A stretch of 37,079 bases of DNA from a virus, in the IMG/VR virus record IMGVR_UViG_3300020459_000034, positions 1 through 37,079 of that record; one strand, given 5' to 3'. The first letter of the stretch is position 1; each line of letters opens with the position of its first letter. The position numbers and the translations under genes were made by a program. Of this stretch, positions 1-37,079 are shown in pieces. Under the pieces are notes generated by a model. The model did no database searches. It was given only the letters and a program-made list of their open reading frames with translations, and had not been told where the DNA came from.

Positions 1-4
1 AAAG

Positions 5-199
5 TCATCCATGTTTAACTCTTTGCTTTCTAACTTCTTGCAAATATTTCTGTTGAAGATCTTGTAGATCTAAATACATCTCTTTTAAGATCTTATCGTT
101 AACAGTATGATCTTCATGTGCGTATGGATATACATCATTACAGATGTGATTAAGATCCCTACAGGCATTGTATAAAATCATACCTTTATCAACTGACAT
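5..199 (-). CDS. Small hypothetical protein, last gene of leftward early operon
   Basis: A 64-residue soluble protein of mixed charge with a probable helical C-terminal half (residues about 35-60, rich in Leu, Gln and Lys). I do not recognise a family. The start overlaps the end of the upstream small gene by 11 bases, which suggests translational coupling. An AGAGGT stretch upstream could serve as ribosome binding site. It is the most distal gene of the leftward operon seen here and ends five bases from the window edge. Confidence 0.6.
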   Translation of the reverse strand: MSVDKGMILYNACRDLNHICNDVYPYAHEDHTVNDKILKEMYLDLQDLQQKYLQEVRKQRVKHG

Positions 200-326
200 C
201 TGGATCCGTACCTCTTAGCCATGTTCTTGTTTCTTTGCAGAACCATTGGTCCTCAAATCTCTTTGGTCTATGGCTGTACTTCTTGCCTTTAGATTTTTCT
301 TTTCCTGGTATCAACTTTTTAGCCAT
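189..326 (-). CDS. Small basic hypothetical protein (45 aa)
   Basis: Read by eye on the minus strand: starts MAKKLIPGKEKSKGKKYS and ends TWLRGTDPDVS, then TGA. The protein is very basic in its first half. Its start overlaps the end of the preceding gene (stop at 319-321) by 8 bases and its end overlaps the next gene by 11 bases, the tight packing expected of real phage genes. A TAAGGA ribosome binding site lies about 8 bases upstream of ATG. The family is unknown. A single WFC segment (residues 28-30) is the only striking feature. Confidence 0.6.
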   Translation of the reverse strand: MAKKLIPGKEKSKGKKYSHRPKRFEDQWFCKETRTWLRGTDPDVS

Positions 327-516
327 TTGGATTTTCCTTACTAAGTATTCCTCTTGTTAAAAACTCTTGTGCTTTTCGGATCAAGACTTGCTTGCTTGCC
401 TTGCATGTATAAACCTTGCCTTGCACTACTACTGTTATCTTGTTCTCTGTCGGTATCACCAGCAACTCGTTTAAGGGCAATTCGATTGAACCAGTAGAGC
501 TTTCCTTCTCTGACAT
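319..516 (-). CDS. Small hypothetical protein overlapping the excisionase-like gene in another frame
   Basis: A 65-residue protein beginning MSEKESSTGSIELPLNELL. The frame is open further upstream, to an ATG at 636, but the start at 516 is preferred because a near-perfect AAAGGAG lies 9 bases before it. Residues 12-60 look like an ordinary folded protein (strand-rich 'ITVVVQGKVYTCKAS', then a helix 'KQVLIRKAQEFLTRG'). About 176 bases overlap the 3' part of the excisionase-like gene in a different frame of the same strand. Function unknown. Confidence 0.55.
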   Translation of the reverse strand: MSEKESSTGSIELPLNELLVIPTENKITVVVQGKVYTCKASKQVLIRKAQEFLTRGILSKENPNG

Positions 517-643
517 GTTTGATGACTCCTTTGTTCGCAAGTCTTGTGGTCCTTCTTTGAGCCGAGGGAGAAATGTCTCCCCATAAAATTTGCGAAGCTT
601 GCTTAGTGTTGACCAAGATGCTGTTTTCCTCTGCATCTTTCAT
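341..643 (-). CDS. Excisionase-like helix-turn-helix protein
   Basis: A 100-residue protein. Residues about 10-62 fit a MerR/excisionase-type winged helix: 'TKQASQILWG' as first helix, 'QRRTTRLANKGVI' as recognition helix, then a wing with aromatic and basic residues ('KLYWFNRIALKRV'). Small proteins of this kind in temperate phages bind DNA and often steer the integrase toward excision; that role is inference. A GGAGGAG ribosome binding site sits directly before ATG. Residues 43-100 overlap the next gene in another frame, and the Ser/Gln-rich tail after residue 65 looks unconstrained. If the window ends join as a circle, this gene lies close to the integrase. Confidence 0.6.
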   Translation of the reverse strand: MKDAEENSILVNTKQASQILWGDISPSAQRRTTRLANKGVIKHVREGKLYWFNRIALKRVAGDTDREQDNSSSARQGLYMQGKQASLDPKSTRVFNKRNT

Positions 644-925
644 TTACTCCTCCGTATTACCAAATAAATTTACGCTTAATAATTTAATGAAATTGTCACC
701 AGCTTTTTCTTGGATCTGAACTCCAACTGTGTAGCTGTTTGTCTTTAGCCATTTGGTAAACATACTTATAACTTCTTGATCGTCTTGGCTGGGACCTTCC
801 TTGCCACAATTAATCCAAGCGGAAGCTTTAATATCTTTAAAGCCTGTAGCTTCTCCGTTAGCCCAGTTTTGCTTTATATCTTGATGTACTGTAACTCTTG
901 AGTTACCCATATGCGGTCTTCCCAT
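644..925 (-). CDS. Hypothetical protein in recombination operon
   Basis: A 93-residue soluble protein, start MGRPHMGNSRVTVHQDIKQ, not assigned to a family. It sits immediately downstream of the ERF gene with no gap (stop to start), with AAAGGAG 9 bases before ATG inside the end of the ERF gene, so the two are probably co-translated. The centre (WINCGKEGPSQDDQEVISMF) and the strand-rich end (TVGVQIQEKAGDNFIKLLSV) suggest a compact globular fold. Position next to ERF and exonuclease hints at DNA metabolism, but the sequence itself does not show this. Confidence 0.65.
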   Translation of the reverse strand: MGRPHMGNSRVTVHQDIKQNWANGEATGFKDIKASAWINCGKEGPSQDDQEVISMFTKWLKTNSYTVGVQIQEKAGDNFIKLLSVNLFGNTEE

Positions 926-1606
926 TTACTTTTTCTCCTTTAATTCAGTTTCTTTTTTCTTGTAGTGTTCAAAAATACGAACATGTCCTTCTGGATTTGT
1001 TTCTTCAAAAAATTTTAATGCATCTGCATTGTCCATCTTCCAGGACATGAGGGCTGGCAATCTTGTTGTTTTTACAATGCCATCGATCAAGTTAGCTTCC
1101 ATTGATTTTGGATCTTGTTTTTTTATTGGAGTTTCTTTTTTTATTAGAGTTTCTTTTTTTATTGGATTGCCATCCGTATCATCACCAGATGCAAGATTTA
1201 ACATGGCTGATAAAATGTATCTTTTAAGATAAGTAATATCAGATCCCAAGCCTTGCAAATTGTTACCAGCACGAAGACTATGTTCCTCTGGCATTTCAAC
1301 AATAGATGCTGGACTAAGATGTCCATTCTCATGGATCATGTGGGCTTGTATAAAGTTACCCCTGATCATTATGTATGGTGTAAGACCACATTCTGGTCCA
1401 TGCTCTCTAAAGGCTTCTATAAGCTTGTCATAAGTAGTGTATGTATTGTTATGAGACTTGCCGTCTTTTTCAATTAACCTCATCTTGCTTTGAAACTTCA
1501 CAAGAGATGAAGCTAGATCAGGATCTATCTTATCAATTGTACTGATCATCTCAGGAGCCTTTTCATTTTCTATTTTAACTATTGGTAAATTTAGATCTGC
1601 ATTCAT
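926..1606 (-). CDS. erf: ERF-family single-strand annealing protein
   Basis: A 226-residue protein matching the ERF superfamily of phage recombinases, which bind ssDNA and anneal complementary strands during recombination or genome circularisation. Visible hallmarks are the 'NNTYTTYDKLIEAFREHG' segment (residues 53-70), the glycine-rich core 'LQGLGSDITYLKRYILSAML' (117-136) and the acidic 'GDDTDGN' (141-147). After residue 147 comes a lysine-rich linker made of six-residue repeats (LIKKET/PIKKQ), then a short C-terminal domain. It starts directly at the stop of the exonuclease gene, so the two form a synaptase/exonuclease pair analogous to lambda Bet/Exo. Length is normal for the family. Confidence 0.85.
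   Translation of the reverse strand: MNADLNLPIVKIENEKAPEMISTIDKIDPDLASSLVKFQSKMRLIEKDGKSHNNTYTTYDKLIEAFREHGPECGLTPYIMIRGNFIQAHMIHENGHLSPASIVEMPEEHSLRAGNNLQGLGSDITYLKRYILSAMLNLASGDDTDGNPIKKETLIKKETPIKKQDPKSMEANLIDGIVKTTRLPALMSWKMDNADALKFFEETNPEGHVRIFEHYKKKETELKEKK
1118..1171. repeat. Three tandem 18-bp repeats inside the ERF gene
   Basis: Units start at 1118, 1136 and 1154; each begins with seven T followed by ATTGGA or ATTAGA. On the coding (minus) strand each unit gives a six-residue IKKET-type step, forming a basic linker between the ERF core and its C-terminal tail. Poly-A/T runs of seven within each unit are prone to slippage. Confidence 0.85.
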
Positions 1607-2617
1607 TTATATAACTCCAAATAATAATTTAGCTTCATCAAGGACCTCTGGATTCATACTGCTCCATGAGATGTGATCCCAATCAGGTATAACCATCTGG
1701 ACCAACTCTTTCAGGCTGTCGCTTTTTCTTAAAATGTGTTCGTGTCTTTTTAGATCTTGAACAATGTTCTGCATTGTGTTGTTCAAATGATCTTGTTCCA
1801 GCATCCAATCACCATTCTCTGGGTGATAAACTTTGCTCTCTACATTATTGGCGCAAACGATAACTGGTTGTCTGTTGAAATAGGAATTGTATACGCTAAC
1901 CTGATTAAGCCATCCAGCATAAGGTGTTTTCGGAATGCTACCTTTACTCCAGGTGCGTGAACCATCCTTCCGTGGAGGATTCAGACGAGGTGAACGGATT
2001 TTTAGCTCAATCAGGTTACAAAAGTCAGGCTTGAAGTAATACGGAAGCTCAATCCCATTAAGCTCCATAAATACATCTGTTTCTCCCTCCCATTGGTTTA
2101 AGCCTAACAATTGAAAGGCATGCTCTAAACCTTGCATAGCATGATGCACAGTATCATCTAAAGCTTCAAAGCATGCCTTTGCTTTAAGCTCGTCATTAGT
2201 GGCATATGCATAGGGTTTGTATACATCCATCTCATGTCGAGCTGTGTCCTCAATCTCCTTTCTATTTTTTGTTTGATAGATCCTCTGTAATTCGTCTAGG
2301 GGAAGCAGACGAGCATCACAGATGGTTTGAACTGTTCTACCAAGGCACATCGGAGCTGAGTCATACGAATATTTATCTATAATCTTAAATGCTTGTCTTC
2401 GTATTTTTTGTTCATCTATTTTTGAATCATTTAAAAGCTTCCAGGCTTTGTCAGTTTGAGGTCTTATAAAAGACTTATCAAAAACTGTTTTACTAAAATG
2501 TTTACTGGCTGGATTACTATGCCATTTGAATTGATGGATCTTAGCCCAATCTGGAAAGGTGCCAAATGAATCTCTGTTTTCTATGTTTAACTTTTCTTGC
2601 ATGATAAAAATATTCAT
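1607..2617 (-). CDS. PD-(D/E)XK exonuclease (YqaJ/RecB-like)
   Basis: A 336-residue nuclease-like protein. The catalytic core is visible: PD at residues 197-198 (YYFKPDF), the E-x-K pair at E204 and K206 (LIELKIR), and a Q-x-x-x-Y motif at Q239-Y243 (QVSVY), typical of RecB-family nucleases. Phage members degrade one strand of linear duplex DNA to load the partner annealing protein. The ERF gene follows immediately on the same transcript. It is the first gene of the leftward operon; the preceding gap carries AAGTCA half-sites that may be repressor operators. No clear Shine-Dalgarno precedes the first ATG; the ATG at residue 6 is an alternative start. Confidence 0.8.
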   Translation of the reverse strand: MNIFIMQEKLNIENRDSFGTFPDWAKIHQFKWHSNPASKHFSKTVFDKSFIRPQTDKAWKLLNDSKIDEQKIRRQAFKIIDKYSYDSAPMCLGRTVQTICDARLLPLDELQRIYQTKNRKEIEDTARHEMDVYKPYAYATNDELKAKACFEALDDTVHHAMQGLEHAFQLLGLNQWEGETDVFMELNGIELPYYFKPDFCNLIELKIRSPRLNPPRKDGSRTWSKGSIPKTPYAGWLNQVSVYNSYFNRQPVIVCANNVESKVYHPENGDWMLEQDHLNNTMQNIVQDLKRHEHILRKSDSLKELVQMVIPDWDHISWSSMNPEVLDEAKLLFGVI

Positions 2618-2740
2618 TTACAAGACCTAACAAGTCAACAATAAATTCTTACAAAATCACTCAAATGTCTTCACAAGTCATTAGAGATGTTTATAAGGCT
2701 GTGGATAACATTAAAAGACAGAAAAAAAATTAAAAAAAAA
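2618..2740 (-). promoter_or_regulatory. Upstream region of leftward recombination operon
   Basis: Non-coding gap before the exonuclease gene. It contains two CAAGTCA elements (2631-2637 and 2674-2680), matching half-sites at the repressor promoter. It also holds a perfect DnaA box (TTATCCACA on the minus strand, 2700-2708) and a long A-rich stretch (2722-2740). I could not pick one convincing -35/-10 pair; TATAAA read on the minus strand near 2690 is a weak -10 candidate. Confidence 0.45.
2700..2708 (-). other. Perfect DnaA box
   Basis: The minus strand reads TTATCCACA, an exact match to the bacterial DnaA box consensus. It lies beside an A/T tract (2722-2740) that could unwind. One-mismatch versions occur elsewhere inside genes, so a single site is only suggestive of a DnaA-assisted origin. 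Confidence 0.4.
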
Positions 2741-2760
2741 GGGACATTTCTGTCCCTTAA
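2731..2760 (-). terminator. Rho-independent terminator of the repressor gene
   Basis: Inverted repeat GGGACA (2741-2746) / TGTCCC (2751-2756) with a 4-base loop, extended by flanking A-T pairs. On the minus strand it is followed by nine T (2732-2740). It lies just downstream of the repressor gene and separates it from the recombination operon. The plus-strand side has only a weak T run, so it acts mainly leftward. Confidence 0.85.
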
Positions 2761-2782
2761 AATTTAAAATTTACATTGCACC

Positions 2783-3706
2783 TTATTCTTCGGTATCTTC
2801 AAAAGCTACTTTCATACCTTGCGCAAATGGATTTACTATAGAAGTTATTACTGGAGTAGCCCAGTCTAATTCTATCCCATCCAGATTTTGGTCTACAGGC
2901 AAAAACTTATAATCATCATGTAAATAATCTTCATCTAACAATTGAAATAACCTAGGAGCCTTTCTTGTCCTTCTTGGTTTTTCATACAAAATGCCAGTAA
3001 GAATTTTATCTGAATCTTTTAACTTACAAACAGACAAGCTATTTAAAGCATTCCTGTGAATAATATTTTTTACCATAGGTCTATGGATAACTAACCAATA
3101 ATGAAAATCTTGCATGTGAAAATCACTGTCATCTTGATAATTGTTTTGATCATCCCAGCCAGAGAACATAATAGCAGAGGTCTTTACTTCTGGTCGAGCT
3201 ACAGTCATCCAATGCGTTAAATACTCACATGTTAAAAACATCTTTCTATCAGTAGTTTTAAAAAGATTTACCTCTCTTTCAGGTCTATTGAAATGTCCAA
3301 TAATTTCCATTTGACCAGGCGCAAGAGAATTTTCATATAGATCTGCATCCTTGCATTTACTTGTCATTAAGCCGAGTGGATCTGTTGCTATGTTGTATTC
3401 ATCAATAAGAACTTCCGCATATTTTTCAGCCATCTCAAAACTTATTGGGCTTTTGCCATGCCTGTGCTTTGAAACTGTTTCTGCTTTAATATTAAGAAAC
3501 TCAGCAAGTTTATAATTTTCTAAATTATATGAAACTATTAACTCGTTTAATGCATTTCTTAAATGATGCGCATGCTGTTTATTTTCATTAAGTGATTGAA
3601 CATTATTTTTAGACAATTCTTTATCCTGTTGTATCTTATCGACTAAAATAGCATTAGCTCTCTCTTGATGTAAAACAAAAGCTGATGGGTTTATATTTTT
3701 TATCAT
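2783..3706 (-). CDS. XRE-type HTH transcriptional regulator, probable phage repressor
   Basis: A 307-residue protein. Residues about 47-100 form an XRE helix-turn-helix (LRNALNELI, then 'YKLAEFLNIKAETVSKHRHG' and 'SFEMAEKYAEVL'). The long C-terminal part (110-307) has no S24/LexA peptidase signature that I can see, so induction by self-cleavage is not evident. The location fits a lysogeny repressor: alone on its transcript, divergent from the rightward early operon, with a good promoter carrying an inverted repeat across the spacer and with its own terminator. GGAGG lies about 8 bases before ATG. Its C-terminal domain may sense an inducer or be involved in oligomerisation; unproven. Confidence 0.75.
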   Translation of the reverse strand: MIKNINPSAFVLHQERANAILVDKIQQDKELSKNNVQSLNENKQHAHHLRNALNELIVSYNLENYKLAEFLNIKAETVSKHRHGKSPISFEMAEKYAEVLIDEYNIATDPLGLMTSKCKDADLYENSLAPGQMEIIGHFNRPEREVNLFKTTDRKMFLTCEYLTHWMTVARPEVKTSAIMFSGWDDQNNYQDDSDFHMQDFHYWLVIHRPMVKNIIHRNALNSLSVCKLKDSDKILTGILYEKPRRTRKAPRLFQLLDEDYLHDDYKFLPVDQNLDGIELDWATPVITSIVNPFAQGMKVAFEDTEE

Positions 3707-3726
3707 GTCATTGACCTCCGCAAAAA

Positions 3727-3754
3727 AGTATATTAACTTGGTTTAATAAGTCAA
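3727..3754 (-). promoter_or_regulatory. Repressor promoter with overlapping operator
   Basis: Read on the minus strand: -35 TTGACT (3749-3754), 16-base spacer, -10 TATACT (3727-3732). The imperfect inverted repeat TTAACTT (3733-3739) / AAGTCAA (3748-3754) fills the spacer and covers the -35 box, so a protein bound there would block the promoter. This suggests autoregulation. Confidence 0.65.
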
Positions 3755-3790
3755 ACGAATTAGTTTTCGAAATCCCAAAAAATTATTAGT

Positions 3791-3824
3791 AAGTTAACAA
3801 GATGTGTTGATAAAAATTTAACAC
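3791..3824. promoter_or_regulatory. Candidate operators in the rightward early control region
   Basis: AAGTTAAC (3791-3798) matches the half-site of the repressor promoter. GTGTTGA (3804-3810) and TTTAACAC (3817-3824) form a near-palindrome 21 bases long ending 18 bases before the first rightward gene. Both lie where the rightward early promoter should be, although I cannot name a convincing -35/-10 pair for it. Confidence 0.45.
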
Positions 3825-3842
3825 GCCAAAAAAGGATTCGAA

Positions 3843-4118
3843 ATGTATTTAATAGATTGGAAGAAGTCGCAAGCAAAAGGTGAAAAGCAAATTACCTGGA
3901 AACAGCTTGCGCATAGATTTGGCATTAGTGATGGATCTATCATAAGACGATGGACTCTTGATGCGTATGACAAGAATTTTAATTTCCCTGGACCAGATAA
4001 TATTCTCAATGTTCAAACAGCCACGCTTGGCGAAGTGACGAGTAAAGATTTTTATGAATGGTTTGAAAACACACAAACTAAAGAAAAGGCGGAGAAATTT
4101 CATGCGAACAGAACCTAA
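3843..4118 (+). CDS. Putative small HTH protein, first rightward early gene
   Basis: A 91-residue protein whose residues about 17-40 ('ITWKQLAHRFGISDGSIIRRW') read as a helix-turn-helix of the kind found in small phage regulators. It is divergent from the repressor, the position of a Cro or CII-like protein in lambdoid phages, but no family match is certain. AAGGA sits 7 bases before ATG. The start of the next gene overlaps its 3' end by 17 bases. Confidence 0.65.
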   Translation: MYLIDWKKSQAKGEKQITWKQLAHRFGISDGSIIRRWTLDAYDKNFNFPGPDNILNVQTATLGEVTSKDFYEWFENTQTKEKAEKFHANRT

Positions 4119-4332
4119 AGTTAGAATGGTAGATAACAAACCAAGAAGAGAAGACGAAATATTTATGATAACGGCAGAACAATTACAATTTTGGATGGAC
4201 CAAGATGTTTCACCACAAGAAGCCATGGAAGCTCTTGGCATTAGACCAAACAAGTTTACTGGAGCTGGCTGGAAGAAGGCTGACTGGATGGATGTTGGTG
4301 TGTCTTTGGTAAAGATCTGGGCTGACCATTAG
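4102..4332 (+). CDS. Hypothetical early protein (76 aa)
   Basis: Starts MRTEPKVRMVDNK. The frame is open upstream to 4054, but the ATG at 4102 is preferred because GGCGGAG lies 8 bases before it. The sequence 'ITAEQLQFWMDQDVSPQEAMEALGI' resembles a helical segment preceding a turn, but I do not assign a family. It overlaps the upstream gene by 17 bases and shares one base of its stop codon with the next gene's GTG start, so the early genes appear translationally coupled. Confidence 0.65.
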   Translation: MRTEPKVRMVDNKPRREDEIFMITAEQLQFWMDQDVSPQEAMEALGIRPNKFTGAGWKKADWMDVGVSLVKIWADH

Positions 4333-4613
4333 TGGGAAAGAAGAAGGTTGTAAGTGTTGGTAAATGTTTTGTCTGCAATAGGATCCATTACAGCCATCTC
4401 GGTGGATGGGTTTTTAACGGCAAGAACCAACTACATTGTTACGAGCTTGACTTTCAAACAGGAGAATTAAGGACAGATTGTTTTGAAAAAACGAGAAGAG
4501 AAGCAGAAGCCAGAATGGGATTGGAATGCAATCGGAGCGGACTTCGAACTGTTTCCGCAAAAGAATTACTTAGCAAAATTAAGGGCAATATGGAGGAGGA
4601 TTTACAAACATGA
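4332..4613 (+). CDS. Cysteine-containing small hypothetical protein
   Basis: A 93-residue protein starting at GTG, which overlaps the preceding TAG by one base. Residues 12-15 give CFVC and a further HC occurs near residue 36, followed later by a DC pair, so a metal-binding zinc-ribbon-like knuckle is possible. No family recognised. No independent strong ribosome binding site is visible, which fits coupling to the upstream stop. The end overlaps the next gene by 4 bases. Confidence 0.6.
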   Translation: MGKKKVVSVGKCFVCNRIHYSHLGGWVFNGKNQLHCYELDFQTGELRTDCFEKTRREAEARMGLECNRSGLRTVSAKELLSKIKGNMEEDLQT

Positions 4614-4978
4614 CGAATTGTGATAACGAAAAGGCTTATATAAGCAAGGGCAACGAATCAGCCCAAGATCTGCTTAATCACCTAAAAAAAATTAACTTAA
4701 AAAAAGCAAGTGACTGCAAGCCATCAGTTAGCCAGGCTAATATAAGACAGGCAGATCTAAGCAAGACATTGCAAGACACAGTTAAGCATATGAATGCTTA
4801 TTATGTCGTAGCAAAAGACAAAAGCCAAAAGCATGGCTATGTCGAGAACATGACACATAAGAAGCTAACAAGAGCCAGCAGTAGCATGTCCAGAGATGCC
4901 TGGAAGGATCTAGCACTGCGAGTTAGCAATATGGACTACAATCAAAAGCAAGAATGGATTAAGCATGCAGACTATTAA
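4610..4978 (+). CDS. Hypothetical early protein (122 aa)
   Basis: A polar, Lys/Asp-rich protein beginning MTNCDNEKAYISKGNES. A GGAGGA ribosome binding site lies inside the end of the previous gene. The predicted helices at residues 18-33 and 50-65 and the C-terminal 'SMSRDAWKDLALRVSNMDY' suggest an all-alpha protein. I do not recognise a family. It overlaps the following HTH gene by 14 bases. No replication protein was found elsewhere, so this operon may hold the initiator, but nothing in this protein proves it. Confidence 0.6.
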   Translation: MTNCDNEKAYISKGNESAQDLLNHLKKINLKKASDCKPSVSQANIRQADLSKTLQDTVKHMNAYYVVAKDKSQKHGYVENMTHKKLTRASSSMSRDAWKDLALRVSNMDYNQKQEWIKHADY

Positions 4979-5453
4979 ACAGCATGAGATAGATCTCATA
5001 CTTAACAATGGCATAGATCACCTGGATAACCTATTAGCGGAAGCATGCGAGACTGAAAAGATGATGCCTTCTGTGAGGGTAAAACAAAGGCTAACACATT
5101 GGATGGACTACAAGACAGAATGGACTGCTTATGGCTATAGCAAAGGCAAGTCACGACTTCCTAAACCTACACCAAAACAAATTGACCGATACGATCTTGT
5201 CATAGAAATGCTAAGTGAGCATTGCACACTTGAAGAGAGAAAGCTTATCTGGGCTGTAAATCATAGCGGAGCATTTCGTGACAGAGGACCACAATGGTCC
5301 AAGATTGGAAAGATCTTGCACATCAATTACAGGACTGTGAAGAGACGATACCTGGATGCACTCTACAAGCTCTGGTACACACTGAAGCCAAACACACAAA
5401 ATATTGAGCATAAAGTGTTGCCAATGCAGTCAAATTCGCTTAATAATAGATAA
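4965..5453 (+). CDS. DUF6362-like helix-turn-helix protein
   Basis: A 162-residue protein. Residues 66-137 fit the DUF6362-type arrangement known from alphaproteobacterial phages: a 'PKPTPKQIDRYDLVIEML' lead-in, a 'LEERKLIWAVNHSG' helix, then 'WSKIGKILHINYRTVKRRY' as a sigma-like helix-turn-helix (108-130). These proteins are thought to bind DNA, possibly as late regulators; the exact role is unknown. It is the last gene of the rightward early operon, just before the packaging genes, which would suit a late-gene activator. Confidence 0.65.
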   Translation: MQTIKQHEIDLILNNGIDHLDNLLAEACETEKMMPSVRVKQRLTHWMDYKTEWTAYGYSKGKSRLPKPTPKQIDRYDLVIEMLSEHCTLEERKLIWAVNHSGAFRDRGPQWSKIGKILHINYRTVKRRYLDALYKLWYTLKPNTQNIEHKVLPMQSNSLNNR

Positions 5454-5467
5454 CCTAGAGCATTTTT

Positions 5468-5588
5468 GTGCGCACCTTATATCACAAATAAATCAAAAAA
5501 ATCATTACCTCCTCCCTATTGGCTAGTAGACTCATCGGCAGTCCTTTGCTTTGTCTTGCTCTGGGACTAGCCTTGAGAGGGGTATAAT
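5468..5588 (+). promoter_or_regulatory. Structured non-coding gap with a consensus -10 box
   Basis: Between the early operon and the packaging genes. It holds the palindrome GTGCGCAC (5468-5475), a perfect 7-bp inverted repeat GGCTAGT (5521-5527) / ACTAGCC (5566-5572) enclosing an inner GACT/AGTC pair, and TATAAT at 5583-5588. No good -35 sits 16-18 bases upstream of TATAAT. This could be a late promoter region or a small structured RNA. Confidence 0.35.
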
Positions 5589-5600
5589 CAGGAGAGGACT

Positions 5601-5726
5601 ATGAGAGTACTATTAGACAAATTTGAAGACACATTATTGGAATACTTTGAAGGACTAACAACACCAGGCTTATATAAGCTTCTTGGCATTACATTGGTCG
5701 TAGCAACAGTATTGTTTTTACTATGA
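5601..5726 (+). CDS. Small membrane protein (41 aa)
   Basis: Read by eye: starts MRVLLDKFEDTLLEYFEG, followed by a C-terminal hydrophobic stretch (LYKLLGITLVVATVLFLL) that looks like one transmembrane helix. AGGAGAGG lies a few bases before ATG. The stop overlaps the start of the next small gene (ATGA type). Function unknown. Its place next to packaging genes is not typical for a holin, so I leave it unassigned. Confidence 0.6.
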   Translation: MRVLLDKFEDTLLEYFEGLTTPGLYKLLGITLVVATVLFLL

Positions 5727-5863
5727 GCTTATACAAGAACATGAATGCTCGTAAGAAGGCTGGAACAAGTCGAAGCAAGAAAGATAGCACTGTGTCTGAT
5801 AAATCGTATGCCAACATGAAAGCTGGCTTCCCCAAGAAAAAGAAGAAAACATTAGTAGGTTAA
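5723..5863 (+). CDS. Small basic protein with KKTLVG C-terminus (46 aa)
   Basis: Starts MSLYKNMNARKKAGTSRSKK and ends in a lysine run followed by TLVG. Short basic proteins with a 'LYKN-N-RKKAGTSR' beginning are familiar to me from marine podovirus genomes, just before the terminase genes; their function is not known. It overlaps the upstream gene by 4 bases, and its stop directly precedes the small-terminase start. Its last residues resemble the end of the large acidic protein upstream of the portal gene. Confidence 0.65.
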   Translation: MSLYKNMNARKKAGTSRSKKDSTVSDKSYANMKAGFPKKKKKTLVG

Positions 5864-31539: not shown

Positions 31540-31992
31540 ATGAGATTAGCAACATTAAAAGAAAATAATCAAATCGTGGCTATAGCCCAAGACACAGTTA
31601 CGATTGCTTTTAACGGAGACTTTAATCAATTAGCTTTGACTGGTGACAGAACATTTAAAGAAGTTATTGGTGTTGATGACAATGGTAAGCCCATTTATGA
31701 AGAACAATTAATTGAAGGAACAGAATTTCCATACCTTCAATTTGCTGGTTATACAGAAGACAATATTAATGTCTTTGAAGGTATTGATGATAGTGAAGCC
31801 CCTGATGGATTAATAGAAGACAGATGGTCTTATACAGAAGAAAAAGGTTTTTATGTTTCAGATGCCTATTTTGAAGAAGAAGGAACTAACGCAGAAGGTC
31901 ATAGATATATAAAATATTCTGATGGATTTTTGCATACCTTTTATGATCATGGCGAGCATGAAGGTTTTATAACCTTTGAAATAGAAAACTAA
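31540..31992 (+). CDS. Hypothetical acidic protein after fibre chaperone
   Basis: A 150-residue, acidic, beta-rich protein beginning MRLATLKENNQIVAIAQDTV. AGGAGG sits 6 bases before ATG. The repeated aromatic/acidic segments (DRWSYTEEKGFYVSDAYFEE; YSDGFLHTFYDHGEHEGF) suggest a fibre-associated or small virion protein. Family not recognised. Its stop overlaps the next ATG by one base. Confidence 0.6.
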   Translation: MRLATLKENNQIVAIAQDTVTIAFNGDFNQLALTGDRTFKEVIGVDDNGKPIYEEQLIEGTEFPYLQFAGYTEDNINVFEGIDDSEAPDGLIEDRWSYTEEKGFYVSDAYFEEEGTNAEGHRYIKYSDGFLHTFYDHGEHEGFITFEIEN

Positions 31993-32186
31993 TGCCTAGA
32001 ACAACTGTTGCAGATATAGACAAGAAAGTAGCTGTTCTCGAACAAGCTCTTAAAGATCACCAACGATCATGTGAAAGTTTATCAATAGAAACTTTGAGTA
32101 GAGTAAAAAGACTAGAGTACCTTTTATTTGCAACATTGTTTTCGGTCCTAGGTGGGACTGTTTTAGTCGTAGTACAAAATATATAA
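31992..32186 (+). CDS. XhlA-like membrane protein (possible holin component)
   Basis: A 64-residue protein: an N-terminal helix with heptad character (IDKKVAVLEQALKDHQRSCE, then ETLSRVKRLEYL) and one C-terminal transmembrane segment (LLFATLFSVLGGTVLVVVQNI region). This is the form of haemolysin XhlA-type phage proteins linked to host lysis. Its ATG overlaps the preceding stop. It opens a run of four membrane or exported proteins that probably make up the lysis cassette. Confidence 0.6.
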   Translation: MPRTTVADIDKKVAVLEQALKDHQRSCESLSIETLSRVKRLEYLLFATLFSVLGGTVLVVVQNI

Positions 32187-32195
32187 GGAGAGATT

Positions 32196-32333
32196 ATGAA
32201 ATATTTTTTAACAATAATGATTGCTGTTTTAATTACAGCATGTGCCGAGCCAGGCAGTGTTAATGTTTCTACTGTAACACCAGCAGAAACAGATCTAAAA
32301 ATAACAATTGAATCAACAAGCGCAAAAGACTAA
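32196..32333 (+). CDS. Small lipoprotein, possible Rz1-like outer spanin
   Basis: Read by eye, 45 residues: MKYFLTIMIAVLITACAEPG. It has a short positive N-terminus, a hydrophobic core and a lipobox LITAC with Cys16 as the lipidation site, leaving a mature peptide of 30 residues. AAGGAGAG precedes ATG, and the stop abuts the next ATG. Short lipoproteins in lysis cassettes often act as outer-membrane spanins. Rz1 proteins are usually proline-rich and this one is not, so the spanin role is tentative. Confidence 0.6.
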   Translation: MKYFLTIMIAVLITACAEPGSVNVSTVTPAETDLKITIESTSAKD

Positions 32334-32771
32334 ATGTTCTCAATCCTTGGAAGCTTGATAGGCTTCGCTGGATCTACTGTTCCCTCCATCATAGACATTT
32401 TTAAAGCTAAACAAGAAAACGCTTTTAAATTAAAGATGCTGGAAGCCCAGGCTAAATACAAAGTACAAGAACAGAAAGCTAAAACAGATACAGCAGAAGT
32501 AGCTGGTGTCTATGCGCATTCACAAACAATACAATCTAAAGCAAGCAAGTGGTCCGTAACTTTAAGCTCTACTGTAAGACCAGTAGTAACTTATATGATT
32601 ATTATTTTATGGCTGTCTGTAAAGCTACTTGCTGTGGTCCAGCTCTACATGGATGGCGGTGAATTATACAAAGTAATAGATAAGATCTTTACCGATTACG
32701 ATGCTGGTTTGATGTCGAGCATTTGTTGTTTCTGGTTTGGATCCAGATCTATTGAGAAGATGAGAAAGTAA
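32334..32771 (+). CDS. Holin-like membrane protein (GTA 3TM-type)
   Basis: A 145-residue protein. The N-terminus is hydrophobic (MFSILGSLIGFAGSTVPSII), then comes a charged helix (FKAKQENAFKLKMLEAQAKY). A strong membrane segment follows (RPVVTYMIIILWLSVKLLAV) and a C-terminal 'ICCFWFGSRSIEKM'. This order resembles the 3TM holins of gene-transfer agents and marine phages, which permeabilise the inner membrane. No Shine-Dalgarno is obvious, but it starts right after the lipoprotein stop. Confidence 0.65.
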   Translation: MFSILGSLIGFAGSTVPSIIDIFKAKQENAFKLKMLEAQAKYKVQEQKAKTDTAEVAGVYAHSQTIQSKASKWSVTLSSTVRPVVTYMIIILWLSVKLLAVVQLYMDGGELYKVIDKIFTDYDAGLMSSICCFWFGSRSIEKMRK

Positions 32772-32772
32772 T

Positions 32773-33339
32773 ATGATGGATAAAATTATTGATGCAATAA
32801 AAGGAATAATATCACCAGAGCAATCTTGGTCCGCTTTTGTAATGAAAATTACAAGCCTTATTATTGTCGCTGTAATTGGATATATAGGCTTTCAACAATA
32901 CCTCAGTCTTGGTGTTGAAGAAGATACTGAGATCCCAATAGTAGAAGTGTACGAGAACGATCCTGAGAAGAAAGTTAGAGTAGAGGATCTTATGACAAGG
33001 CTTCTAAGATCTGACAGAGATATTGATTCAATCTGGTTATATGATTGGGTAGATGCCAGAAACATTGTTCCATTATTTACTGAGCCAAGAAACAGCGCAG
33101 ATCTATTACCAACAGGATATTGGATGGAAGGTGACGAATATGTCATCGGTCATTTTGTTTTAAGTCAATGTACTTCTCTTGATAGAGATGTACCAAACAT
33201 TGCATGCCCTATAATGTCATCTGAAGATGCCTGGGGAGTTTTGTTAGTAACATATCGAGATGGTGTAACGCCTGATTTGAAAACTACAAAAGCAACAGCA
33301 ATGAAAATTTCAGAAGTTTTATATTTAATAACTAGATAA
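32773..33339 (+). CDS. Membrane-anchored protein with possible GAF-like periplasmic domain
   Basis: A 188-residue protein (start ATGATG; the second ATG at 32776 is also possible). One transmembrane helix near residues 25-46 (MKITSLIIVAVIGYIGFQQY) is followed by a soluble domain with two cysteines. The 'LMTRLLRSDRDIDSIWLYDW' start and 'AWGVLLVTYRDG...KISEVL' end loosely resemble a GAF fold; this is pattern recognition only. It sits where an endolysin would be expected, but no lysozyme, amidase or peptidase motif is visible. Confidence 0.55.
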   Translation: MMDKIIDAIKGIISPEQSWSAFVMKITSLIIVAVIGYIGFQQYLSLGVEEDTEIPIVEVYENDPEKKVRVEDLMTRLLRSDRDIDSIWLYDWVDARNIVPLFTEPRNSADLLPTGYWMEGDEYVIGHFVLSQCTSLDRDVPNIACPIMSSEDAWGVLLVTYRDGVTPDLKTTKATAMKISEVLYLITR

Positions 33340-33352
33340 AAGGGAGGTTATC

Positions 33353-33385
33353 ATGGATAGAAATTTAAAGGCAGATACAGGATAA
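33353..33385 (+). other. Ten-codon open frame with strong ribosome binding site
   Basis: AGGGAGG lies 5 bases before ATG, then MDRNLKADTG and a stop. The site is better than those of many real genes here, but the peptide is only ten residues. It may be a leader peptide or the remnant of a broken gene. Confidence 0.3.
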
Positions 33386-33407
33386 AATTAAACTTAGTTA
33401 GTTTATT

Positions 33408-33578
33408 TTGTCACATAGCTGGAAGCTAATCACAGTCAACATAATAAGTTTAATATGTGTCTTTAGTTTCAATTATTTCATCCATGAGAGAGTCTCAATG
33501 ACTTCGACTGATGTTTGTGTTGCATCGTGTAGTCGAAGAAGAAAATTAACCAACGAGTTAGACGATACAGATATGTAA
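33408..33578 (+). CDS. Possible small membrane protein (TTG start)
   Basis: The frame is open from 33402 to the stop at 33576-33578. With TTG at 33408 it encodes 56 residues: a short start, a hydrophobic segment (ITVNIISLICVFSFNYF), then a polar tail with two cysteines and an RRRK cluster. No Shine-Dalgarno is visible before TTG. An ATG at 33498 would give only 26 residues without the membrane part. It lies in an otherwise gene-free stretch of the lysis region. The membrane helix is the only support for coding. Confidence 0.35.
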   Translation: MSHSWKLITVNIISLICVFSFNYFIHERVSMTSTDVCVASCSRRRKLTNELDDTDM

Positions 33579-33590
33579 TGAGGAGAGTAC

Positions 33591-33776
33591 ATGAATACAG
33601 TATTAACATTTGCTAAGAGAGAAATATTTGGATGTACAGAATGTGGATCTATTGATTTCAATATTGAAGCCGAACAGCATTTAGATGAGCAAAAAATTAG
33701 CCAGCTAATATGTTCTAATTACGATTGCAGAACTGTTTATAGAATGAGTGATGATATAGACATAGAGACTAACTAA
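33591..33776 (+). CDS. Small zinc-ribbon-like protein
   Basis: A 61-residue protein with two cysteine knuckles: CTEC (residues 15-18) and CSNYDC (about 41-46), spaced as in a zinc ribbon. AGGAGAG sits 4 bases before ATG. The stop overlaps the start of the phosphoesterase by one base, so they are probably co-expressed. It may bind nucleic acid or protein; no specific partner is evident. Confidence 0.7.
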   Translation: MNTVLTFAKREIFGCTECGSIDFNIEAEQHLDEQKISQLICSNYDCRTVYRMSDDIDIETN

Positions 33777-34927
33777 TGGTTAAATCTACAAACTCAATGA
33801 GTTTTGAAGAAGCTGAAGATCTTGTTACTAAGGGTAGTCAAGTAGGTAGAAACAAAACTTGGAAGAAGCAATCAGATCTTGCTTTATCTATGGACCTTAC
33901 TCTTGATCAATTAAAAGGTAGATTAAAGTCAGCTAGGCATATTATTAAAATGCAAAGGGATGAAACAGATCACCAGCATTATACAATCCCTGGTCTTGAA
34001 AAAATGTCAGACCATGAAGAGATGTCTGCCGAAGAAATTATTTCTTATGCTCATCAAAATTGGAAAAAGAAAAAAGAAAAAGATGATCTACTTGAGCTAG
34101 TCCCTATAAAGTTTTCTAAGGATATTGTTACAGGCATATGCGTATGGGGTGATCCACATTTAGACGATGGAGGGGCAAATTGGGATGTCCTTACATCCTT
34201 AATGGAAACCTTAAAAAAATATGATCCAGATAGAGGATCTGAAGATCCAATCTATTCAGTAAACATTGGAGACTCTCACAACAATTGGATAGGAAGACTA
34301 AGCAGATATTACATTGAACAAAAAATGACTAAGTCGATGGTGTACAAAGTCATTGAACATTTAATTGAAGAAATTAATTTTATCTTATTAATTAGAGGTA
34401 ATCACGACATGTGGGATCCGAGTAATATTAACTATGATAAGATGGATTGGTTTGCACAAGCATCTGGAACACTTGCAGTAGATTGGAGAGCTAATATAGA
34501 TTTTCAATTTCCAAATGGAGTATCAGTCAAAGCCGATTTTCGCCATAATTTTTCTGGGACTTCGATGTACAATCCGCTACATGGAATGCAGAAAGCAAAC
34601 TTGTTTAACACTAATGCAGATATATATGTGGCTGGACATTTACATAATTATGCAACTATGGAAATGCCATCAACAAACAAATCAAATTATGAATCAGGGT
34701 TTAAATCACCAGCACATTTGTTAAGAGTAAAAGGATTTAAAGATATAGATTCATATGCTGATCAACATGGTTTTCCCAGACAAGATTACGGACATGCTGG
34801 ACTGATTGTAATAGATCCATTTACAACTCAACAGAACAGAATAAAGATCTACAGCGACATAGAATATGGAGCTAATATGATTAGATTATTAAATGACGAT
34901 TATAGAAAAAAAGGAACAATTAAATGA
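33776..34927 (+). CDS. Calcineurin-like metallophosphoesterase
   Basis: A 383-residue protein. The five metal-site motifs are all visible: D-x-H at D126/H128 (WGDPHLDDGG), GD at D166 (NIGDSHNN), GNHD at residues 208-211, a His in 'ADFRHNFSG' and GHLH with H288/H290. The first 110 residues form a helical N-terminal region with a possible helix-turn-helix-like segment (QSDLALSMDLTLDQLKGRLK). Such enzymes in phages may act on nucleic acids or nucleotides; the substrate is not shown by sequence. It overlaps the gene before by one base and the gene after by four. Confidence 0.88.
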   Translation: MVKSTNSMSFEEAEDLVTKGSQVGRNKTWKKQSDLALSMDLTLDQLKGRLKSARHIIKMQRDETDHQHYTIPGLEKMSDHEEMSAEEIISYAHQNWKKKKEKDDLLELVPIKFSKDIVTGICVWGDPHLDDGGANWDVLTSLMETLKKYDPDRGSEDPIYSVNIGDSHNNWIGRLSRYYIEQKMTKSMVYKVIEHLIEEINFILLIRGNHDMWDPSNINYDKMDWFAQASGTLAVDWRANIDFQFPNGVSVKADFRHNFSGTSMYNPLHGMQKANLFNTNADIYVAGHLHNYATMEMPSTNKSNYESGFKSPAHLLRVKGFKDIDSYADQHGFPRQDYGHAGLIVIDPFTTQQNRIKIYSDIEYGANMIRLLNDDYRKKGTIK

Positions 34928-35115
34928 CAACATTATTAGGATCTTCACAAAGAAAAAGGAAGCAAGGACAAACTGCTGGAGTAGGTGGATCTGCTTTACC
35001 AAGTGGAACAAAATCTAATTCACCAGCTCAAAGAATTGCTGATCGTGGTAAGACAAAAGGCGTAGTCAGAACATCTGCACAGCCAAAGAAAAAACAAAAA
35101 AAATCTAACTATTAA
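34924..35115 (+). CDS. Small basic hypothetical protein (63 aa)
   Basis: Starts MTTLLGSSQRKRKQGQTAGV and is Lys/Arg/Gln/Ser-rich to the end, probably disordered and perhaps DNA-binding. It overlaps the phosphoesterase stop by four bases (ATGA). Its TLLGSS start recalls the TLVGS ends of two other proteins of this phage. It is the last gene before the attP-like region. Confidence 0.55.
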   Translation: MTTLLGSSQRKRKQGQTAGVGGSALPSGTKSNSPAQRIADRGKTKGVVRTSAQPKKKQKKSNY

Positions 35116-35345
35116 AAAGGTCGCAGTCACAGATTAACCCTTTCGTGACTGCACTCGTGACTGCATTCTACGGATCAATAGGAGTCATTGTGTTTCACTA
35201 AATGCTTGTAATGTGCGCTAAATGAGACTACAAGACACTATTCAAGGGGTTCGATTCCCCTAGGGACTACCATCTCTAAGCCGTTGTTTTATAACGATAA
35301 TCACTTAAAAAAACTCTCTGTGACTCCGTCTGTGACTCCATATTT
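35116..35345. other. attP: Putative phage attachment site (attP)
   Basis: A 346-base non-coding stretch next to the integrase gene begins here. Its core is a tRNA 3'-end: a T-arm AGGGG-TTCGATT-CCCCT (35245-35261), an acceptor 3' strand, discriminator A and CCA ending at 35272. No 5' half of the tRNA is present. Arm-type repeats flank it: GTGACTGC at 35145-35152 and 35157-35164, with an inverted copy at 35123-35130, on the left; GTGACTCC at 35320-35327 and 35332-35339 on the right. Both direct pairs have 12-bp spacing. This is the architecture of a tyrosine-integrase attP. Confidence 0.75.
35221..35272 (+). other. tRNA 3'-end-like fragment (attP core)
   Basis: Contains a complete T-stem/loop and CCA end. 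The acceptor strand AGGGACT would pair with AGTCCCT, which does not occur nearby, so this is not a functional tRNA. Counting back gives a U33-like T and a 5-base variable loop, but the implied anticodon is not convincing, so host identity probably starts inside this fragment. A tmRNA 3' end cannot be excluded. Confidence 0.7.
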
Positions 35346-35351
35346 TCTGCG

Positions 35352-35383
35352 ATTTTCCGAAGATTTTATTTCTCTCGGAAAAT
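35352..35383. repeat. Perfect 9-bp inverted repeat beside attP
   Basis: ATTTTCCGA (35352-35360) and TCGGAAAAT (35375-35383) are separated by a T-rich 14 bases. It lies between the right arm repeats and the promoter of the YodL-like gene. It could be a protein site or a weak hairpin; no T run follows. Confidence 0.55.
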
Positions 35384-35390
35384 TCCCCTG

Positions 35391-35437
35391 TTGACAGGTA
35401 CGGCTATATTGGTGTAGTTTGTCTTTGTAAGTCAAAC
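35391..35437 (+). promoter_or_regulatory. Promoter and operator of the YodL-like/integrase genes
   Basis: A perfect -35 TTGACA (35391-35396), an 18-base spacer and a poor -10 TAGTTT (35415-35420). An inverted repeat with 8 of 9 matches, GTTTGTCTT (35417-35425) / AAGTCAAAC (35429-35437), overlaps the -10 and start region. Its right half is the same AAGTCAA element as at the repressor promoter, suggesting repressor control of integration genes. Confidence 0.6.
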
Positions 35438-35464
35438 ATATCAATTAACATATAGGAGGAAATG

Positions 35465-35875
35465 ATGGGTTACAGAATATATCAAATAGACAGAGAGTGG
35501 AGAAAAAGTTTAGGTGAGGATTGGAGAAAGCATGACTTGTCCTACATCGAATTTTCTAGCAGAGGAAATCTAGCAGATAGATGGAAGCCAGAATATTTGG
35601 ATCACTATAAACATGTTGTTTCATTAAATGTTTCAGACATAGATTTATGGGATGTTTATAGAACATTAAATGTTCATGCATTCTATCAAGACGATCAAGA
35701 CATTTATGAAAATGTTATCTCTGATTACGAAACAAAAACTGTTGAAAGAGATGGTGAAGAAATTACATACAAAATGTATCACTCTTTAAGCATCGGAGAT
35801 ATTGTTGAAGATCTTGAGACTGGTAAAAAGTTTATTCTGCATGAAGACTTTGTAGACTTAAAGGAGATTAACTAA
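35465..35875 (+). CDS. YodL-like protein upstream of integrase
   Basis: A 136-residue protein. The C-terminal 'YHSLSIGDIVEDLETGKKFI' leading to 'DFVDLKEI' fits the YodL-like family (SlSvGDiv....g..y......GF..i), common in phages and conjugative elements but of unknown function. Start: ATGATG; the second ATG at 35465 lies 5 bases from AGGAGG, a better spacing than the first at 35462. Its TAA shares one base with the integrase ATG, so the pair is translationally coupled. Confidence 0.65.
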   Translation: MGYRIYQIDREWRKSLGEDWRKHDLSYIEFSSRGNLADRWKPEYLDHYKHVVSLNVSDIDLWDVYRTLNVHAFYQDDQDIYENVISDYETKTVERDGEEITYKMYHSLSIGDIVEDLETGKKFILHEDFVDLKEIN

Positions 35876-37079
35876 TGAGATCTCCTTATAAAATTAGTCA
35901 AAGACAATTTAGAGCAAAAAAGAAAGGATGGTCCTCTTGGACCATCACTTTCCAAGATCCAAAATTAAAAGCTGAGTATAAAGATACTTATTTTAAAACT
36001 AGAGATCTTGCCGAAGCAACTGCTAAAGAAATTTACAAGAAAAAAGTTAATAACAAAATTGTACCTAAAGCTAAGAAGAAATCTGTAGACAATGTTTATT
36101 CTGTTTTCATGGAAAAAGATATTGATCCTCTTTATGATTCTAATCAGATGAGTAAAGATAGATATTCAAGATATGTCTTTGTCGGTAAATTATTAAAACA
36201 GCATGATCTTGGTAAAATGATTTGTGATGAAGTTAGGACCAGTGATGTTTCAGATTTTTATAGAGACAATAAATCTAAAGGCAGATCTAGGAAGACAATT
36301 CAAAATCATCATTCATGCCTAGAGAGATTTTTTGTTTGGTGTCAGATACAAGATTATATTACTGGAAGACCTACTGTGAAAAAAATGGTTAGAGGTTTAT
36401 TTCAAAATGATTCTAAATCTTTTGATATTAAAAGTATCTCTGAAGAGAACATTAAACTTATTCAAGAAAATATTTTTGATGATACATTTTCACAGTTAAT
36501 GTTTTTAATGGCTATTAAGACTGGCATGAGAGCTGGTGAGCAACTTGCCCTTACATGGTCTGATATTGATTTTGATAATGATGTTATCACTATTAATAAA
36601 AACATATCTGAAGGCGAGGGAACTAAAGCTGATAAGTTAAGTGAAAGTACAGTTATAATTGGTAGAAAGATTCCTCTTAATCCAGATCTTAAAAAAGCAT
36701 TATTGTCTTGGAAGATGGAAACTAAATACAGCCAGGAAGATAAAGAAGTGTTTACTAGATATGGTGAAAGATTTAAAGCTTATGGTGGTGCTTCTACTTC
36801 ATCAAGTTATAATTATGAAGGACAACCAGCTAGTTATGATTCTCTTAAATACATTCTTCATAACGCAATTAAAAAGAGTGGAGCAAGATCTATATCTTGG
36901 CACAGCCTAAGACATTATGTTGCAAGTAAGCTGATCCTAACTGATGGTGACTCAAAAGATAATCTTAAAAAAATATCATTGTTTCTTGGACACCAACAGA
37001 TCGCAACAACTGAGAGAGTTTATGCTCATGTGATTGCTTTAAATAATTATCAGGATGAAAAAACTTTAGATATGGTGGC
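35875..37079 (+). CDS. int: Tyrosine-type integrase (partial at window edge)
   Basis: 401 codons are visible with no stop before the window edge. The N-terminal arm-binding-like region (residues 1-60) is basic and aromatic. A SAM-like core-binding domain lies around 70-185. The catalytic domain has R219 (TGMRAGEQLAL), H343-x-x-R346 (WHSLRH), H373 (LGHQQ) and nucleophile Y383 (ERVYAH). All active-site residues are present, so only a short C-terminus is missing. AAGGAG precedes ATG. It would catalyse recombination between the adjacent attP-like site and a host tRNA gene. Confidence 0.93.
   Translation, partial: MRSPYKISQRQFRAKKKGWSSWTITFQDPKLKAEYKDTYFKTRDLAEATAKEIYKKKVNNKIVPKAKKKSVDNVYSVFMEKDIDPLYDSNQMSKDRYSRYVFVGKLLKQHDLGKMICDEVRTSDVSDFYRDNKSKGRSRKTIQNHHSCLERFFVWCQIQDYITGRPTVKKMVRGLFQNDSKSFDIKSISEENIKLIQENIFDDTFSQLMFLMAIKTGMRAGEQLALTWSDIDFDNDVITINKNISEGEGTKADKLSESTVIIGRKIPLNPDLKKALLSWKMETKYSQEDKEVFTRYGERFKAYGGASTSSSYNYEGQPASYDSLKYILHNAIKKSGARSISWHSLRHYVASKLILTDGDSKDNLKKISLFLGHQQIATTERVYAHVIALNNYQDEKTLDMV

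Follow-up and report, generated by a model that had tools for sequence, protein, structure and literature searches.

A probable attachment site with a tRNA-Glu core and paired arm-type repeats beside the integrase gene of a marine podovirus-like phage

Results and Discussion

A tRNA-Glu 3' end as the attP core

The DNA analyzed here (the window, all 37,079 nucleotides of IMG/VR virus record IMGVR_UViG_3300020459_000034) carries near its right end a 28-bp core flanked by short repeats and followed by a tyrosine integrase gene. The core (35245 to 35272, + strand; AGGGGTTCGATTCCCCTAGGGACTACCA) is identical at 28 of 28 positions to the 3' end of tRNA-Glu(TTC), comprising the T-arm, the acceptor strand, and CCA. 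Immediately to its left the match to host tRNA genes ends, and ARAGORN found no complete tRNA at the window attP. The first-pass annotation had described this element as a T-arm plus CCA end without a 5' half, which holds, and had suggested comparing it with marine bacterial tRNA and tmRNA genes; the match is exact to tRNA-Glu(TTC) genes of many alphaproteobacteria. A tmRNA target was ruled out, since all host genes at the matches examined with ARAGORN are tRNA-Glu.

The layout is the classical one, with the phage copy being the portion of the tRNA 3' of the exchange point. The T-stem supplies inverted half-sites (AGGGG and CCCCT) on either side of the 7-base T-loop (TTCGATT, 35250 to 35256, + strand), which is likely the overlap region for strand exchange, judging from the symmetry of the core and the left limit of attP/attB identity.

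Paired repeats on both sides of the core

Each flank of the core holds a direct GTGACT(G/C)C pair at 12-bp spacing, and the left side has one further inverted outer copy. The left pair consists of GTGACTGC at 35145 to 35152 and 35157 to 35164 (both + strand), and the inverted copy of GTGACTGC (GCAGTCAC on the + strand) occupies 35123 to 35130 on the − strand. The right pair consists of GTGACTCC at 35320 to 35327 and 35332 to 35339 (both + strand). Upon re-examination, the positions first assigned to these repeats (35145, 35157, 35320, 35332, and the inverted copy at 35123) were all correct, as was the exact 12-bp spacing of both pairs. The window contains 7 copies of the single motif GTGACTSC, where 1.07 would be expected, and 5 of the 7 are at the attP. 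Its paired form, GTGACTSC-N4-GTGACTSC, occurs at only two places in the 37-kb window, one on each side of the core, with 0 expected (shuffles give none). When any 6-mer was allowed, pairs with equal spacing left and right of the core arose in 1 of 20,000 dinucleotide shuffles, and the same two-sided pairing was seen at 0 of 5,029 other window positions. The two-sided repeat pattern is not a product of chance. A CTTGTA...TACAAG dyad left of the core was considered as an extra site and dropped, as it is lost in the related contigs L095 and L119. An IHF consensus scan of the attP sites returned no conserved match, and no excisionase gene was identified in the annotated parts.

The integrase gene and the segment preceding it

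The integrase open reading frame (35875 to 37079, + strand), absent from the list in the first-pass annotation, begins 0.6 kb downstream of the core. It is cut by the contig end and appears otherwise intact; the 401 residues that precede the cut include the catalytic region. The product matches Pfam PF00589 (E = 1.5e-19) and the PHROG integrase family (E = 4e-41), and residues R219, H343, R346, and H373 are invariant among relatives. A search for close DNA in annotated phages returned short integrase matches only. Among solved structures the best sequence match is Tn1549 Int. Structure prediction gave a beta-beta-(beta)-alpha N-terminus (strands at residues 5 to 11 and 20 to 26, a short one at about 39 to 40, and a helix at 43 to 62; pLDDT, 75); the full-length model was poor and is usable for the N-terminal domain only. 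With moderate confidence, the first ∼62 residues, with their predicted strands and long helix, resemble described integrase arm-binding domains (PMC8138268). Foldseek and VIA-align searches with this domain gave no significant match; the weak matches were generic, many of them to dsRNA-binding domains, and no integrase arm domain was listed.

From the right arm toward int, the window presents a hairpin (35352 to 35383, + strand), the motif TTCCCCT, and a TTGACA promoter element (35391 to 35396, + strand), all within 35352 to 35396. The hairpin helix is retained with altered base pairs and varied loop lengths in most relatives and is weak in L096, and TTGACA, the probable −35 element of an int-directed promoter, is conserved in 6 of 7 sequences. 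In a prophage, the hairpin may keep read-through of the host tRNA gene from reaching int. A 137-amino-acid open reading frame lies between attP and int (35462 to 35875, + strand); this slot holds different genes in L099 and L118 and none in L096 or L119, so the frame is not a required part of the attP. At the other end of the window, a product with a weak match to phage transcriptional regulators (a possible repressor; 2783 to 3706, − strand) and an Erf-like annealing protein (926 to 1606, − strand) are encoded, which is consistent with a temperate phage.

Conservation of the attP layout and form of the genome

The same attP layout is present in all integrase-bearing relatives (IMG/VR contigs whose integrases are 50 to 96% identical), and seven distinct attP sites were compared. 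In all seven, the left pair lies at −105/−93 from the T-loop, within 1 bp. The right pair keeps its 12-bp spacing everywhere and is located at +45 to +70 from the T-loop, and the inverted outer copy is found at −115 to −129 in all relatives. The recurrence of matching repeat spacing in relatives, on which the first-pass annotation had staked its reading, is thus observed, with 12 bp kept in all seven sites. Four repeat types were recognized: GTGACT (window, L094, L095, and L099), TGACGCT (L096 to L098), CAACAC (L118), and ATCAACA (L119). Three observations support the initial identification of this locus as an attP: the core matches tRNA-Glu exactly, a tyrosine integrase gene lies next to it, and integrase-bearing relatives share the layout.

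The window is a linear IMG/VR record. L093/L094, L097, L098, and L099 continue from its right end to its left end through 733 bp that are absent from the window, and the closest relative (L112; 99.8%) has 1,076 bp across the same gap. Comparison with L093 (window 31989 to 37079 and 1 to 5781) places ∼0.7 to 1.1 kb of missing DNA between the right and left ends. The 38.6-kb L119 contig overlaps itself by 138 bp at its ends, with one mismatch, and has an intact attP. Since the genomes of relatives map as circles with an unsplit attP and no bacterial DNA, the window represents a nonintegrated phage genome. The first-pass annotation had argued for a free phage from the unsplit, internal attP; the relatives joining the window ends and the L119 circle bear this out, the window record itself being not closed. 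A prophage region such as a tandem lysogen would likewise hold an unsplit attP, but the relatives link both window ends without bacterial DNA, L119 closes as a circle, and the annotated window parts show no host gene, which makes this origin very improbable.

Covariation of the repeats with the integrase N-terminal domain

Integrase alignment columns 1 to 42 were taken as the N-terminal domain for comparison with the rest of the protein. Between integrases whose attP sites share a repeat type, these columns are conserved as much as the rest or more. Where the repeats differ between integrases that are otherwise close, the domain is far less conserved: in the L095/L096 pair, its value is 63% versus 88% for the rest (P = 1e-4), and in the L099/L118 pair, it is 71% versus 90% (P = 0.001). 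The covariation rests on these two independent contrasts, as the other significant pairs share the same sequences and are not independent. The integrase DNA of L099 is window-like to about codon 42 and L118-like beyond it, and its repeats are window-like. By this comparison the L099 integrase gene is recombinant, with an apparent breakpoint near codon 43, at the end of the predicted arm-binding sheet. As the repeat sequence and the first ∼42 integrase residues change together, the repeats are putative arm sites. Most likely they would be read by the integrase N-terminal domain, and the simplest reading suggested by these alignments is that this domain reads the repeats and that both travel together.

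These data also bear on whether the locus could be no working attP but a piece of a tRNA-Glu gene, decayed or captured, next to repeats that some other protein binds (e.g., a repressor or a replication initiator). Such an origin would fit the lack of a lysogen in the genomes sampled. It would leave unexplained why the 28-bp core is the same or nearly so across relatives while the flanks diverge, why the repeats covary with the integrase N-terminal domain, and why L117, a 10.5-kb fragment related through the neighboring gene and the only relative found to lack an integrase, has no attP in the corresponding stretch. We therefore regard a decayed fragment as highly unlikely and retain the attP as our reading.

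Host range suggested by the core

The core ends in ...GGGACTACCA in the window and in GGGACTGCCA in L096 to L098 and L119. None of 117 genomes from what we take to be the SAR11 order, identified through one genome that contains a SAR11 16S probe sequence, has the ...GGGACTRCCA end of the core. Where read, tRNA-Glu genes of that order end in ...GGGACCGCCA, with C72 instead of the T72 of the core. The ACTACCA and ACTGCCA variants, by contrast, are matched exactly within one low-GC marine alphaproteobacterial order (10 of 18 genomes) that includes PS1-clade, OCS116, and other named genomes (loci L028, L081, L061, L046, L018, and L027). Because both core-end variants occur there and are absent from the 117 SAR11-order genomes, the tRNA sequences favor the PS1/OCS116 order as the putative host, with unsampled hosts possible.

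The same attP could alternatively serve in SAR11, with integration into its tRNA-Glu gene despite mismatches at positions 72 and 73. The portal protein is closest to those of HTVC010P-type pelagiphages (∼55% identity), and most SAR11 tRNA-Glu genes read have the same T-arm as the core and the same exchange region at the T-loop. Set against these points are the different 3' end of the SAR11-order genes read, the absence of the core end from the 117 genomes, and the exact occurrence of both phage variants in the order containing PS1 and OCS116, so that a SAR11 host seems to us unlikely, with a real though minor share of the probability.

Prophages of this type with attL and attR carrying the core, which the first-pass annotation had proposed to look for, were not found in the sampled genomes: an integrase search detected none in 18 PS1/OCS116-order, 397 SAR11-order, and 385 class genomes, and a portal search of the PS1/OCS116 order returned nothing. 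As a positive control, the same search recovers all integrase-bearing relatives tried.

Proposed integration mechanism and known systems

Collectively, we are highly confident that the site is the attP of a temperate podovirus-like phage whose integrase would recombine the core with a host tRNA-Glu(TTC) gene and bind the paired repeats through its N-terminal domain; the binding, the exchange points, the restoration of the tRNA, the host, and lysogeny are what we infer from the sequences. Recombination by the tyrosine integrase encoded nearby probably joins the 28-bp core to the host gene at its 3' end, with strand exchange most likely at the T-loop edges. The host tRNA would be rebuilt at attL, because the core would supply what is left of the T-arm together with the acceptor strand and CCA. 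As in lambda-type intasomes, the N-terminal domain would sit on the paired repeats, and the core would be handled by the core-binding and catalytic domains.

In a broader interpretation, whose chances we judge to be about even, the arm repeats and the integrase N-terminal domain (approximately residues 1 to 42) have been swapped together as a matching unit, with the tRNA-Glu core and the catalytic part left in place. A single attP scaffold would then have acquired four or more natural arm specificities, and the temperate HTVC010P-type relatives that bear it would infect the PS1/OCS116 order and not SAR11. Arm specificity may accordingly evolve by module exchange, perhaps separating the integration systems of co-infecting relatives. 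The series, with one spacing, four repeat sequences, and matched integrases, is ready-made for studying how arm domains read DNA. It also identifies the host gene at which this group of temperate marine phages would integrate and indicates a host lineage.

The closest parallel is found in Cluster K mycobacteriophages (CrimD, Anaya, Adephagia, and Pixie), in which Pope et al. 2011 (PMC3203893) described paired arm-type repeats around a tRNA/tmRNA core, with the outermost site inverted in Pixie, and matched repeat differences to N-terminal integrase residues. The window shares with them a tRNA/tmRNA 3'-end core 5' of the integrase gene, paired repeats on both sides, an inverted outermost left site (as in Pixie), and repeats that differ with the integrase N-terminus. 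Unlike Cluster K, it belongs to another phage and host group and has a direct pair per side with a spacing of 12 bp; its relatives differ by more than point changes, with four types of repeat and one integrase that is recombinant. The attP architecture and the arm/N-terminal domain covariation are thus already described in mycobacteriophages, and what is added here is an unusually clear comparative series.

Lambda attP and Int share the core with arm sites on both sides and a separate N-terminal arm-binding domain (predicted here), whereas the window core is directed at a tRNA gene, conserved IHF-like sites were not recognized, and the arms form symmetrical pairs plus one inverted site. The integrase has its best solved match in the Tn916/Tn1549 group (PMC8138268, PMC5871717), with which its N-terminus may share a predicted beta-sheet and helix. 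Those transposons are relaxed in their choice of target, and the phage has a tRNA gene as its fixed one. Mizuno et al. 2013 (PMC3861242) tied HTVC010P-related marine (uvMED) phages to hosts, SAR11, by integrase and att matches. Like tRNA-integrating pelagiphages and uvMED/uvDeep phages (PMC3861242, PMC4981710, PMC6811365), the window phage is marine and has an integrase beside an attP copying a host tRNA; it differs from them in its tRNA-Glu with a T72 end fitting the PS1/OCS116 order and in that arm sites were analyzed.

Additional tRNA-Glu copies

A complete tRNA-Glu(TTC) gene (L119, 5363 to 5437, − strand) lies beside the left attP arm of L119; it is the same tRNA as the attP target, and its T-arm differs from the core. 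The gene recalls tRNA-dependent lysogeny, in which a short core fails to rebuild the tRNA and the phage carries a copy of that tRNA (PMC10865867), or a spare copy; with exchange at the T-loop, the length of the L119 core would suffice for rebuilding the host tRNA. Other viral contigs with the core hold complete tRNA-Glu genes (in tRNA-rich phages or from GC-rich hosts) or an unrelated element and are not the window phage. In one 17.3-kb GC-rich contig of the viral collection, two intact tRNA-Glu copies (L145, 206 to 280; L146, 12474 to 12548) have differing downstream DNA and perhaps flank an inserted element. In the unrelated element (L150), a tyrosine recombinase gene (85 to 972, − strand) directly adjoins this tRNA-Glu 3' end; mobile elements of more than one kind thus make use of the tRNA gene.
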